The position numbers were made by a program, and so were the translations under genes. The notes under the pieces were generated by a model. That model saw only the letters and a list, made by a program, of their open reading frames with translations. It made no database searches and was not told where the DNA came from. Positions 7,951 to 44,261 of a stretch of 64,000 nt of DNA are shown piece by piece. How positions within the stretch are numbered: the first letter of the stretch is position 1; every line of letters begins with the position of its first letter. The DNA is taken from assembly GCF_009930795.1 (NCBI RefSeq), contig NZ_CP017146.1, positions 124,001-188,000 of the forward strand. The letters are read 5' to 3'. This DNA comes from Marisediminicola antarctica. GTDB taxonomy: Bacteria; Actinomycetota; Actinomycetes; Actinomycetales; Microbacteriaceae.

Positions 7951-9471
7951 CTACAGCCCGCGGGCGAGCCGGTAGTAGGCCTGGTTCCAGCGCAGCTCCC
8001 TGCTGAAATCGCGCAGGTTCGTGTTCTTGTCGATCACGACGAGCTCGTTGCGCGCGATCTCTGCGAAGTCCTCGAAGACGTCGATGCCGACGGCGGTCGA
8101 CATCACCGTGTGGTGGGCGGCTCCCGCCACAAGCCACGCGGCGGCGCTTGTCGCGAAGTCGGGCTCGGGCTTCCACACCGCGCGGGCCACCGGCAGCTTG
8201 GGAAGCGGATGCGGCAGCGGCACGACCTCGACGACGTTCGCGACGAGCCGGAAGCGGTCGCGCATATCGGAGAGGGCGACGACGACGGCGGGTCCGGCAT
8301 CCGTATCGAACACAAGCCGCACCGGGTCCTCGCGGCCGCCGATGCCGAGCGGATGCACCTCGAGGCGCGGCCTCGAGGTCGTCAGCGACGGGCACACCTC
8401 GAGCATGTGCGCACCGAGGATGAGCTCGTTGCCCGGGGTCATGTCGTAGGTGTAGTCCTCCATGAGCGAGGCCCCGCCGGGGAGCCCGGCGCCCATGACC
8501 TTGGCCGCGCGAACAAGAACGGCGGTCTTCCAGTCGCCCTCGGCGCCGAAACCGTAGCCGTCGGCCATGAGTCGCTGCACGGCGAGGCCGGGCAGTTGGC
8601 GGAGTCCGCCGAGGTCTTCGAAGCTCGTCGTGAAGGCACTGAACCCGCCGGCCTCGAGGAAGGAGCGCAGCCCGAGTTCGATGCGCGCGCCGTAGCGCAG
8701 CGAGTCGTGGCGCTCCCCGCCGGATCGCAGCTCTGGCACAACCTCGTAGAGTTCCTCGTACTCGGCGACGAGCGCGTCGACGTCGGCCTCGGTCGCGGCG
8801 TCGACCGCCTCGACGAGATCGTTCACTCCCCAGGTGTTGACCTGCACACCGAACTGCAGCTCGGCCTCGGTCTTGTCTCCCTCGGTCACGGCCACGAAGC
8901 GCATGTTGTCGCCGAACCGGGCGAGCTTCAGCTCGTGGGTCGCCGCCCAGCCCGCCGCGGCGCGCGTCCACGTGCCGATTCTCGCGGCGACCACAGGGTT
9001 GGAGACGTGGCCGACGACCGTCTTGCGGGCGACTCCGAGACGGGTCTGGATGTAGCCGAACTCGCGGTCGCCGTGCGCGGCCTGATTGAGGTTCATGAAG
9101 TCCATGTCGATCTCAGACCACGGCAGCTCCACGTTCGCCTGCGTGTGCAGGTGCAGCAGCGGCTTGCGCAGCAGGTCGAGGCCGGTGATCCACATCTTCG
9201 CGGGGCTGAAGGTGTGCATCCACGCGATGACGCCGATGACGCGGTCGTTCGCGTTGGCGTCGAGGGCGAGACGGCGGATGGAATCGGAGTCCTTGAGCAC
9301 CGGCATCCACTTCACGGTCACGGGGACGTCGCGGGCGGCACCGAGCGCGCTGGCGATCTGCTGGGACTGCTCCGCGACCTGGCGCAGCGTCTCGTCGCCG
9401 TACAGGTTCTGGCTGCCGGTGACGAACCAGACCTCGTACGTGGCGAGGTCGGGAATGATCGAGCCGTTCAT
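7951..9471 (-). CDS. araA: L-arabinose isomerase
   Basis: Converts L-arabinose to L-ribulose. The 506 residues match the family length (about 500). The N-terminus contains [19 protein letters not shown] and the centre [15 protein letters not shown], both hallmarks of AraA; the C-terminal region includes the conserved stretch around [10 protein letters not shown] with the histidine pair. It overlaps araD by four bases (ATGA), indicating translational coupling in the order araB-araD-araA. Under the operator at 12042-12059. Confidence 0.97.
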
Positions 9472-36868: not shown

Positions 36869-38071
36869 GTGGCCACCCAACTCCCCCGTATCTCACAGCG
36901 CATCTCCTCGATCGCCGAATCCGCGACCCTCAAGGTCGACTCGAAAGCCAAGGCGCTGCAAGCCGCCGGGCGCCCCGTCATCAGCTACGCCGCGGGCGAG
37001 CCGGACTTTCCGACGCCGGCAAACATCGTCGAGGCAGCATCCGTCGCCGTCCTCGACCCCAAGAATCATCGTTACACCCCGGCGGCCGGCCTGCCGGAGC
37101 TGCGCGAGGCAATCGCGGCGAAGACCGCGCGGGACAGCGGCTGGGCGGTGACCGCCAACCAGGTGGTCGTCACGAACGGCGGCAAGCAGGCCGTCTACCA
37201 GGCCTTCGCCACGCTCATCGACCCGGGCGACGAAGTCATCCTGCCCTCCCCGTATTGGACGACCTACCCCGAGGCGATCCGCCTGGCCGGCGGCGTGCCT
37301 GTCGAGGTCTTCGCGGGGGTAGAGCAGAACTACCTCGCCACGGTCGAGCAGCTCGAGGCCGCCCGCACCCCGCGCACCAAGGTTCTCCTCTTCGTCTCGC
37401 CGTCCAACCCGACGGGGTCGGTCTACTCGGCCGAGCAGACCCGCGCGATCGGCGAGTGGGCGCTCAAGCACGGCATCTGGGTCATCAGCGACGAGATCTA
37501 CCAGAACCTCGTCTACGACGGCATCCGCGCGGTGTCGATCGTCGAGGCCGTCCCGGCCCTCGCCGACACCACAATCCTTGTGAACGGGGTCGCCAAGACC
37601 TACGCAATGACCGGCTGGCGCCTCGGCTGGATGGTCGGACCCGTCGACGCCGTCAAGGCCGCCGCGAACCTGCAGTCGCACCTCTCCTCCAATGTGTCGA
37701 ACATCTCGCAGCGGGCGGCGATCGCCGCGCTGACCGGTCCGCAGGATGCCGTGGAAGACATGCGGCGGGCGTTCGACCGTCGCCGCGCGACCATCGTCGC
37801 CGAGCTCAACAAGATCGACGGGGTCAACTGCCCGATCCCGGAGGGCGCGTTCTACGTCTACCCCGACGTGACGGGCCTGCTCGGGCGCGAGTGGGGCGGG
37901 GTGACGCCCACGAGCTCGCTCGAGCTCGCGGACCTGATCCTCGAGCAGGCCGAGGTGGCCGTCGTCCCCGGTGAAGCGTTCGGGCCGAGCGGCTACCTGA
38001 GGCTCTCATACGCGCTCGGCGACGAGGCGCTGCTCGAGGGAATACAGCGCCTGCAGCGCCTGTTCGCGTAG
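36869..38071 (+). CDS. aspC: Aspartate/aromatic aminotransferase, class I
   Basis: 400-residue PLP enzyme. Conserved [10 protein letters not shown] near residue 41, [15 protein letters not shown] near 68, [11 protein letters not shown] near 177, [12 protein letters not shown], and the Schiff-base lysine K243 in [16 protein letters not shown]. This is the AspB/AspC Igamma subgroup, so oxaloacetate/aspartate is the likely substrate. GTG start, leaderless promoter. Monocistronic; a 73-bp repeat array follows. Confidence 0.93.
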
Positions 38072-38113
38072 GAGCCGCCTCTGCGCTGCGGGTCTCGAAC
38101 GACTCCGCTTGGG

Positions 38114-38420
38114 CAGGCAACTCGCGCACCCACACCCCGCGAACCACCCACAAACGTCCCCTCCGCGCCCACCAAGGCCGCACAAGCAGGCAACTCGCGC
38201 CCCCACACCCCGCGAACCACCCACAAACGTCCCCTCCGCGCCCACCAAGGCCGCGCAATCAGGCAACTCGCGACCCCACACCCCGCGAACCACCCACAAA
38301 GGTCCCCTCCGCGCCCACCAAGGCCGCGCAATCAGGCAACTCGCGCACCCACACCCCGCGAACCACCCACAAAGGTCCCCTCCGCGCCCACCAAGGCCGC
38401 GCAATCAGGCAACTCGCGGC
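38114..38420. repeat. 73-bp tandem repeat array, four units and a partial fifth
   Basis: Units start with CAGGCAACTCGCG at 38114, 38187, 38260, 38333 and 38406, giving an exact 73-base period with few substitutions. The unit also holds CCACACCCCGCGAACCACCC and CCAAGGCCGC. The period is not a multiple of three, so ORFs through it are repetitive artefacts. The 507-base gap 38072-38578 contains nothing else I can name. Confidence 0.95.
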
Positions 38421-38578
38421 GTGAAAGCTTGCGCAGGCAGGATCCGAAGCCAGACATCATGCCGATGGCGCAGGCGCCCCACGGCGCTCCTCCCCTCCCC
38501 AGCCGCCAGGTTCGCCGATCACTTCCCCACCGCGGGCGGGCCTGGACCGGAGGTCCAGCTGTCTCCGAGCATTAGTGC

Positions 38579-43097: not shown

Positions 43098-43104
43098 GTG
43101 TGCC

Positions 43105-43110
43105 AGCCTA
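43105..43110 (-). promoter_or_regulatory. -10 box of the hadA-like gene
   Basis: TAGGCT on the minus strand ends seven bases before the GTG at 43097; no RBS, so a leaderless start is likely. Confidence 0.55.
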
Positions 43111-43150
43111 ACCAATTGCTACTGCCAGCAGCCGAAGCGGGGCAATGCGA

Positions 43151-43183
43151 AAGGCCCGGCCATCGTGATGATGGCCGGGCCTT
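43151..43183 (-). terminator. Terminator of the micropeptide gene
   Basis: A perfect 14-bp stem (AAGGCCCGGCCATC with GATGGCCGGGCCTT) and five-base loop, followed by UUU on the minus strand, 18 bases after the micropeptide stop. Confidence 0.85.
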
Positions 43184-43201
43184 CCGGGTGGACTTAGTCG
43201 C

Positions 43202-43282
43202 CTACTGGCAGCTGTCGCACTGTAGGAGATCCATCGGGTCGACGGGGATTTCGTAGCCGCCTACGTTGTTGTCGTTGTCCAT
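43202..43282 (-). CDS. 26-residue CxxC micropeptide
   Basis: Unrecognised small gene, below the size of standard gene calling. ATG at 43280-43282 lies five bases after a perfect AAGGAGG (43288-43294). The product begins MDNDNNVGGY, is acidic, and ends LLQCDSCQ. It has no signal peptide, hydrophobic segment or aromatic-rich core. It forms its own unit: promoter with a palindrome over the -35, about 79-base 5' leader, ORF, then a strong terminator. Possible roles: RiPP-like precursor, metal or redox peptide, or signalling or leader peptide. No maturase, protease or exporter is adjacent. Coding is supported by the RBS and flanking signals, not by homology. Confidence 0.7.
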   Translation of the reverse strand: MDNDNNVGGYEIPVDPMDLLQCDSCQ

Positions 43283-43367
43283 GTTGGCCTCCTTCAAGCT
43301 TCGTTGCCGATCACCCCGATCGGCTCCAGCAGGTGCGGGGATCGAAACCCTCGCTTGCTGGATCTTT

Positions 43368-43398
43368 ACTATATAACGCTAATGACACCCGTGTCATT
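43368..43398 (-). promoter_or_regulatory. Promoter of the micropeptide with palindromic operator
   Basis: On the minus strand ATGACA (-35, 43392-43397) and TATAGT (-10, 43368-43373) are 18 bases apart. The -35 is embedded in the perfect inverted repeat AATGACACCCGTGTCATT (43381-43398), so a dimeric regulator binding here would cover the promoter. Confidence 0.7.
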
Positions 43399-43400
43399 CC

Positions 43401-43412
43401 ACTACATGTAGT
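43401..43412. promoter_or_regulatory. Perfect 12-bp palindrome next to the micropeptide operator
   Basis: ACTACATGTAGT is fully self-complementary and lies two bases beyond the 18-bp operator, just after the SDR stop codon. Possibly a second regulator site. Confidence 0.5.
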
Positions 43413-43415
43413 GTT

Positions 43416-44261
43416 TCAAGATTTTTTTGGAGATTGTTGCGCCACACGCCCGGTGAAGTCGTCCATCGAGCGATAGACGCCGAAAAGGCGGCCGGCGACA
43501 AAGTCGAAGGCGCGCTGCGGGAGCAGCCCGTTGAGCGCCCGCCCCAGGCTCACTGTCCAGGGCAACAGGAGGAACGGCCGGGCTGCGAGCATCGCGGCCC
43601 AGGCGCGATCGACGACATACTCTGGTGCCATGATCGGCGTCAGCAACGGCCCGCGGGCGCCGTCGAACATGCCGGTGCTGATGTAGCTGGGGGCGAGGGT
43701 CGTGACACCGACGTGCCCGTGACCGGCTCGCACCAGCTCGAGACGAAGCGAGTCGCTCCAGCCGATCACCGCCCACTTCGACGCCGCGTAAACGCTCATT
43801 TTCGGATTCGACACGGTTCCGGCAGCCGAGGCAACATTGAGAATTCGGCTCGGGCCCGCCCCCTTGATCATCCCCGGCAGGAATTCGGCCGCGATCTGCA
43901 TGGGGGCGATCGCGTTGACGCGCATCGTGAGCTCGGTATCACGCTCGGAATCGTGGTCCCAGAAATAGCCCGACCGTACGATCCCGGCGTTGTTGATGAG
44001 CACCTCGGGGTTGCCGACCTCCGCTCGCACACGTCCGGCAGCATCCGAGATAGATTTCAGCGCAGAGATGTCGACGAGGTAGGGAGCGATTCTCACCCCC
44101 GGTGTGGCGAGTTCCGCGGCGGTCGCGGCGAGGGCATCCGCGTCGATGTCCCAGAGGACAACCGCTTTCGCCCCCTCCAGCACCGCCCGCTGACCATAGA
44201 GGCGCCCCATACCCATGGCGGCCCCGGTGACGAGCACGATCATTCCCGCGACTGATTTCAT
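43416..44261 (-). CDS. Short-chain dehydrogenase/reductase
   Basis: 281 residues. NAD(P)-binding VTGAAMGMG near residue 11, NNAG near 89, and catalytic YAASK in SVYAASKWAVIGWS near 157. The C-terminal 80 residues include a hydrophobic stretch (RPFLLLPWTVSLGRALNGLLP), suggesting membrane association or a lipid/retinol-type substrate. Leaderless start (TAGTGT six bases before ATG). Upstream of and collinear with the micropeptide gene, but a separate promoter lies between them. Confidence 0.9.
   Translation of the reverse strand: MKSVAGMIVLVTGAAMGMGRLYGQRAVLEGAKAVVLWDIDADALAATAAELATPGVRIAPYLVDISALKSISDAAGRVRAEVGNPEVLINNAGIVRSGYFWDHDSERDTELTMRVNAIAPMQIAAEFLPGMIKGAGPSRILNVASAAGTVSNPKMSVYAASKWAVIGWSDSLRLELVRAGHGHVGVTTLAPSYISTGMFDGARGPLLTPIMAPEYVVDRAWAAMLAARPFLLLPWTVSLGRALNGLLPQRAFDFVAGRLFGVYRSMDDFTGRVAQQSPKKS

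Follow-up and report, generated by a model that had tools for sequence, protein, structure and literature searches.

What is made from a gene of only 26 codons that is surrounded by a complete set of expression signals, and what might the product be used for? Such a gene lies on the minus strand of the window, the 64,000-nucleotide stretch of Marisediminicola antarctica DNA analysed here, and encodes the peptide MDNDNNVGGYEIPVDPMDLLQCDSCQ. It is flanked by a short-chain dehydrogenase gene on one side and by a HadA/HadB-like pair, followed by murB, on the other. A preliminary description had outlined a unit at 43151-43412 with -35 and -10 elements, AAGGAGG five bases before ATG, and a 26-codon reading frame, and its coordinates match those listed here:

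43202..43282, minus strand: predicted tail peptide gene, 26 codons plus TAG (ATG at 43282, TAG at 43204-43202), from the translation
43208..43219, minus strand: putative redox CxxC codons (Cys22 to Cys25), from the sequence, with CDSCQ at the peptide end
43288..43294, minus strand: ribosome-binding site AAGGAGG, from the sequence, five bases before ATG
43392..43397, minus strand: -35 element ATGACA, from the promoter scan
43368..43373, minus strand: -10 element TATAGT, from the promoter scan, 18 bp from the -35 element
43399..43414, minus strand: NrdR-like box 1, ACACTACATGTAGTGG, putative operator half, from box-pair scoring
43366..43381, minus strand: NrdR-like box 2, TAGCGTTATATAGTAA, 17 bp from box 1, covering the -10 element
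43381..43398, minus strand: inverted repeat AATGACAC-GG-GTGTCATT, from the sequence, between both boxes
43151..43183, minus strand: terminator-like hairpin, 14-bp stem and 5-base loop, starting 18 bases past the stop

The -35 and -10 elements, with 10 of 12 matches, form the single promoter-like match in 43100-43450 (0.2 expected). The perfect 18-bp inverted repeat that had been placed over the -35 element was confirmed at 43398-43381; it consists of two perfect 8-bp arms and a 2-bp centre, with the -35 element within the left arm. The palindrome-controlled promoter proposed on that basis held in part: the palindrome is real, but it is not the whole operator, being flanked by the two NrdR-like boxes. 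The proposed terminator, 18 bases after the stop, also stood with respect to its 14-bp stem and its position, and a 66-base stretch containing 43183-43151 folds at z = -6.0, with 0 of 200 shuffles equally stable, but the hairpin is absent from the list produced by the T-run terminator scan. Rfam, at gathering score, returned tRNAs only. A further inverted repeat, GCCGATC-GGGGT-GATCGGC, is located in the 5′ leader at window positions 43307-43325, just upstream of the ribosome-binding site, and tandem direct repeats with a 73-bp period occupy window positions 38041-38478, behind a gene that was named aminotransferase-like by reading.

No family in Pfam or NCBIfam covers the 26-residue peptide, and a weak Pfam zinc-finger match (E 0.3) was rejected. 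A peptide search of 60 related genomes gave matches at E <= 1 in 20 of them, in most cases two or more each, and in two genomes of other families (L018 and L019) the same motif forms the C-terminus of a long reductase alpha frame. Fused NrdA ends in other families read, for example, ...CPVDPMERLQCESCQ. By this similarity, MDNDNNVGGYEIPVDPMDLLQCDSCQ is, though separately encoded, homologous to the C-terminal redox tail of NrdA, the alpha subunit of class I ribonucleotide reductase. All class I enzymes are stated, in the excerpt of PMC6187632, to have a C-terminal cysteine pair in NrdA, which, once reduced by redoxins, reduces the pair in the active site. The peptide has the C-terminal cysteine pair and is homologous to the tails of complete NrdA proteins, and at the gene level it is no covalent part of the alpha subunit, being encoded by a separate gene. 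The window copy is best described, from its signals, as an extra stand-alone gene with its own promoter.

The hint of redox chemistry that the preliminary description saw in the terminal CxxC is borne out by this homology; its statement that there is no known family is accurate for Pfam and NCBIfam, but overlooks the kinship with a known element, the NrdA tail. The functions it listed instead, a metal-binding peptide, a modified-peptide precursor or a leader peptide, would suit a gene that is short, CxxC-ended and well signalled, but are made highly improbable by the homology and by the absence of modification or export genes among the four neighbours scanned (the short-chain dehydrogenase, the HadA-like and HadB-like hotdog dehydratases, and MurB); the stable hairpin between the tail gene and the next gene may also speak against a leader peptide.

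If the peptide is a detached tail, the reductase of the same genome becomes the relevant partner. The own nrdA gene (G000:C1:1234900-1237443) encodes at most 847 residues with ATP cone, alpha-helical (lgN) and barrel domains, and its product ends ...SAPRKGFGFGKPGN, with the tail absent. The nrdA stop overlaps the start of a small gene encoding MNEQFQYEVPVDPMDDLQCDSCQ, and nrdB (PF00268, E 7e-74) is next. Among solved class I alpha chains, 5im3 gave the best alignment with this NrdA (E 3e-194), and the cysteine segments and the TTYYL segment are kept in it; we take these segments to hold the catalytic residues. Its alpha-chain domains, its homology and the adjacent nrdB mark the partner as a class I alpha subunit. 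A second stand-alone tail gene of this genome, without a box pair, was found at G000:C1:1654577-1654651 (L032, tail stop at 8654), between an IS4/5-type transposase frame and a VapB antitoxin/PIN pair (PIN just under the cut-off), in surroundings that look like an island.

The same arrangement was found across the family. Among 150 Microbacteriaceae genomes, 70 have this NrdA (at least 72% identity) and 72 show a match to the tail (E <= 0.01), with 1-6 tail copies per genome; the tail is present in 70/70 genomes with this NrdA, versus 2/80 without it (Fisher p 4e-41, phylogeny ignored). A match in G168, which has no such NrdA, was a 16-residue frame (E 5.8e-4) unconfirmed on reading, and G140, in which tails are present and no reductase was found, is represented by an assembly that is 77% complete. 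The 3′ end of nrdA was read in 68 of the 70 genomes, leaving out G027 and G128 for their partial nrdA matches; G014 was excluded as well, its assembly having a broken nrdA frame, which leaves 67 readable C-termini. None of the 67 has a cysteine after the YYLH motif. In 63 of them, a separate tail gene is located just downstream of nrdA, with a stop-to-stop distance of 62-180 nt, and many of these genes overlap the nrdA stop. CxxCQ is kept in all 62 adjacent tails that were found by a search blind to cysteines, and also in the 63rd (G074), which lies 180 nt behind the nrdA stop, was found with a profile, and has Val where the search pattern required Leu, Phe or Met. The remaining four genomes (G020, G081, G150 and G165) have no tail within 1.5 kb behind nrdA, and all tails found in them lie elsewhere. 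In G020, G081 and G150, the one PF02867 protein found is the tail-less NrdA; G165 weighs less, because a class II-like reductase is also present. G020, a 0.9-Mb genome, and G081 have a single tail each, that of G020 about 33 kb from nrdA.

In other families of the order, the tail is part of NrdA in 19/19 ends read, taken from the 30 other-family genomes that matched at E <= 1e-150 in a set of 198 order genomes. At class level, 18 of 394 genomes gave a match. Setting aside the own genome and G168, 15 of these matches are in frames of at least 855 residues, and that of G545 runs off the contig end. The split therefore appears to be confined to Microbacteriaceae, within the samples examined. Taken from these reading frames and their order, the tail of NrdA is apparently lost in Microbacteriaceae and supplied by separate genes, usually one between nrdA and nrdB plus at least one stand-alone copy.

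We put at roughly 0.83 the probability that the peptide is a free C-terminal redox tail that re-reduces the active-site disulfide of the tail-less NrdA in trans. With each turnover, two active-site cysteines of NrdA end up joined by a disulfide; the CxxC of the translated peptide would enter the active site, take over this disulfide and leave, and the oxidised peptide would then be reduced by thioredoxin or a similar redoxin. In the genomes with unlinked tails only, action in trans is hard to avoid, if the enzyme works. The positions of the adjacent genes, 63 of 67 close behind nrdA with many overlapping its stop, could also suggest that the ribosome adds the tail to NrdA through a frameshift, stop read-through or bypassing, and that stand-alone copies are spares; 8 tails are indeed in the same frame behind the nrdA stop. 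This is quite unlikely, given that the adjacent tails occupy all three relative frames (frames 2, 0 and 1 in 50, 8 and 5 cases) with variable gaps, that nrdA has no neighbouring tail gene in 4 of 67 genomes, and that the window copy comes with a promoter, ribosome-binding site and hairpin of its own. Frameshift fusion as a general rule was judged improbable on the same frame counts and the same four genomes.

Codon constraint bears on whether the free peptides are used at all. Computed for the last 17 codons, pN/pS came to 0.10 among 59 distinct chromosomal stand-alone sequences, 0.14 among 54 viral sequences (pS 0.89, near saturation), and 0.22 among 62 nrdA-locus tails. The comparison that the preliminary description had proposed, conservation of peptide and palindrome with a bias toward synonymous change, thus came out in its favour: both are kept across genera, with the value of 0.10 for the stand-alone genes. 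DTT has been reported to reduce reductase active sites without C-terminal cysteines (excerpts of PMC4520616 and PMC6459318), whereas TCEP is reported to do so through the C-terminal pair only (excerpt of PMC6459318); a small thiol or redoxin might, like DTT, reduce the tail-less NrdA directly, leaving the peptides as relics. Relics would not be expected to keep such constraint, to accompany this NrdA in every one of the 70 genomes, or to be carried by phages and plasmids, which makes direct reduction very unlikely. Within the last 17 residues, position 10 is Leu in 57/76 stand-alone and 52/62 viral tails, and Asp or Glu in 48/64 adjacent tails (counts that required C..CQ and are circular for those letters); this position may mark two functional types.

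The window promoter carries two palindromic boxes with 17-bp spacing. The excerpt of PMC12051234 describes NrdR binding as strongest with paired 16-bp boxes 15-17 bp apart, and that of PMC9110341 reports NrdR to be dependent on G-C pairs that are conserved in each box, nine positions apart; both window boxes have such pairs. A nrdR gene is present in the own genome (TIGR00244 above cut-off, G000:C1:2462834-2463265). The exact pattern CTACATSTAGKG-N22-25-TATATAGT occurs at two sites in the 3.35-Mb genome, the window gene and the nrdA promoter, and the reversed control gave 0.

The scan of genome contigs used the pattern DPMDxLQC followed by D or E, and that of viral contigs DPMDxLQC; these residues are conserved by construction in the retrieved sets, because they served as the search pattern. 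From the best 80 of 324 confirmed genome stretches, 77 stand-alone chromosomal loci remained after removal of three adjoining nrdA, and 75 of the 77 have an upstream box pair scoring at least 21, whereas none of 231 shuffles scored above 18; the two loci below 21 are L089 and L114. Named stand-alone carriers among these best 80 of 324 include Marisediminicola senii, Galbitalea soli, Aurantimicrobium minutum and Alpinimonas psychrophila, and further ones are Microcella and Salinibacterium species. Of the nrdA promoters, 50/51 score at least 20 (shuffle maximum 18); 14 of 65 loci were without a readable start. The scorer was tuned on sequences already seen, and the exact-pattern search and the aligned promoters are therefore the stronger evidence.

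From this shared operator-like sequence, we infer that the window gene is under NrdR control. The separate control that had been claimed for the gene thus takes the form of its own promoter with a box pair, and the argument that its signals speak for a peptide that is made is a fair one. The unit exceeds what chance would give, with the box-pair pattern found twice in 3.35 Mb and not in the control, and with peptide and promoter conserved across genera. The palindrome between the boxes, AATGACA-N4-TGTCATT, is kept at stand-alone tail genes and not at nrdA: in 73 stand-alone promoters with a 17-bp spacer (from the best 80 of 324), conservation of its AATGACA and TGT columns reaches 90% or more, and AATGACA-N4-TGT was found in 0/50 nrdA promoters with boxes. 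It may serve a second regulator.

The window copy would be transcribed alone and probably repressed by NrdR together with nrdA; through this shared repression, NrdA and tail dose are proposed to rise and fall together. Extra stand-alone copies may keep the peptide in excess over NrdA, because a tail that is no longer tethered to the enzyme gives up its high local concentration there. Two observations sit less easily with the trans-acting tail: most genomes keep at least two tails, and neither the viral copies nor the second stand-alone copy of the own genome have the box pair.

Yeast Sml1 is said to occupy the reductase tail site. A stand-alone peptide might similarly act as a competitive inhibitor or regulator at the NrdA tail site, rather than as an electron carrier; a free peptide resembling the tail could be a competitor there, and viral copies could tune host nucleotide synthesis. 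In this family, there would be no NrdA tail to compete with (0/67), a stand-alone copy is the sole tail found in G020 and G081, and an operator common with nrdA fits supply better than inhibition. Such a role is unlikely.

Tail genes were also found on mobile elements. In annotated collections, three distinct phage isolates carry the tail, unannotated in each: in Pontimonas phage phiPsal1 (E 0.009) and Clavibacter phage CMP1 (E 0.1) it is directly behind the holin gene, and in Clavibacter phage CN1A (E 1) it is behind a metallophosphatase. A short query accounts for the weak E-values; each matching frame ends in DPMDxxxCxxCQ, followed by a stop. Five Staphylococcus phage matches, with 54% coverage at E about 10, were put down to chance. 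The tail occurs in 19 plasmid records from Clavibacter, Leifsonia and Gryllotalpicola (E 6e-5 to 0.2). In plasmids pCM2 (L054) and pCS1 (L318), it has an ArdC-like gene on one side and a single-strand-binding protein gene on the other, a context that hints at expression early after transfer; a weak single-strand-binding protein match follows the tail in L030. A reductase large subunit was found in 0/6 of the phage and plasmid records checked. One 33-residue plasmid tail (L055:4977-5078, WP_223361114.1) is publicly named “ribonucleotide-diphosphate reductase subunit beta” and resembles the alpha tail; the reductase link has therefore left a trace in annotation, under the wrong subunit.

In IMG/VR, 305 stretches encode tail relatives. 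Among the best 80 of these 305, L146 and L205 have nrdB, L215 has nrdA and nrdB, and the other 77 lack both within the stretch covered (at most about 10 kb per contig). The NrdA of L215 ends ...APRKGFGFKSAN and is tail-less, with a tail gene just upstream and nrdB downstream. This viral NrdA (L215:5164-8526, 1120 residues) has a large insertion and a Pfam intein splicing domain match (E 6e-8, below cut-off). The frame between the tail gene and nrdB of L205 (L205:5168-6097) has no PHROG or Pfam match; by eye, its start resembles a Hint/intein domain. The box pair is wanting at the viral copies, 76/77 of which score below 20 (from the best 80 of 305). Among the four viral loci with neighbours named, an endolysin is encoded within about 1.6 kb upstream in L137, L161 and L189, and not in L159.

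On balance, the evidence leans toward phages and plasmids carrying just the tail of about 25 residues as a free mobile microprotein that raises or holds the host dNTP supply, which these copies would do during replication or establishment. The location of some phage copies near lysis genes, not an obvious place for nucleotide metabolism, argues against this role. If it is correct, the mobile tail would be one of the smallest auxiliary metabolic genes, and reductase control through tail dose would be a new regulatory layer. A function would also be given to small phage and plasmid genes that are unannotated or called hypothetical.

The wider interest of the locus lies in a whole family in which class I NrdA is tail-less in every case read (67/67) and a separate peptide gene has the tail, a probably essential function missed by family libraries. 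It would provide a natural system in which enzyme regeneration is titratable apart from catalysis, and a test of tails in trans. A search of full texts, a collection with few subscription papers and no bioRxiv preprints, gave no description of a detached NrdA tail among the matches listed, as judged by title and the start of the abstract. Zhang et al. (2007) reportedly studied the yeast tail.

Among known systems, the class I NrdA tail has the homologous sequence and the same CxxCQ terminus, but here it would be the product of a separate gene, linked or unlinked to nrdA and present in 1-6 copies per genome. The closest parallel in trans is the split class II reductase of Pseudomonas aeruginosa, in which, according to the excerpt of PMC4520616, NrdJb provides NrdJa with disulfide exchange in trans and is needed in vivo. 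In both cases, catalysis and disulfide exchange are, or are here proposed to be, placed on different chains; the catalytic subunit here is a class I alpha with an adjacent small chain, not an AdoCbl-dependent class II enzyme, and, whereas NrdJb is produced from a two-gene operon, the small peptide is often multi-copy, sometimes unlinked, and carried on phages and plasmids. The promoter resembles those of the NrdR regulon in its paired 16-bp palindromic boxes, 15-17 bp apart, but the target is a stand-alone tail gene, and an extra conserved palindrome lies between the putative boxes. NrdH and fused glutaredoxins (excerpt of PMC6187632) are likewise separate or separable redox partners of class I reductases; they are folded redoxins, whereas the tail peptide would be what they reduce. 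Compared with these systems, we rate the detached tail as a putative split reductase that is unusual in how far the separate part is pared down, in its copy number and in its mobility.
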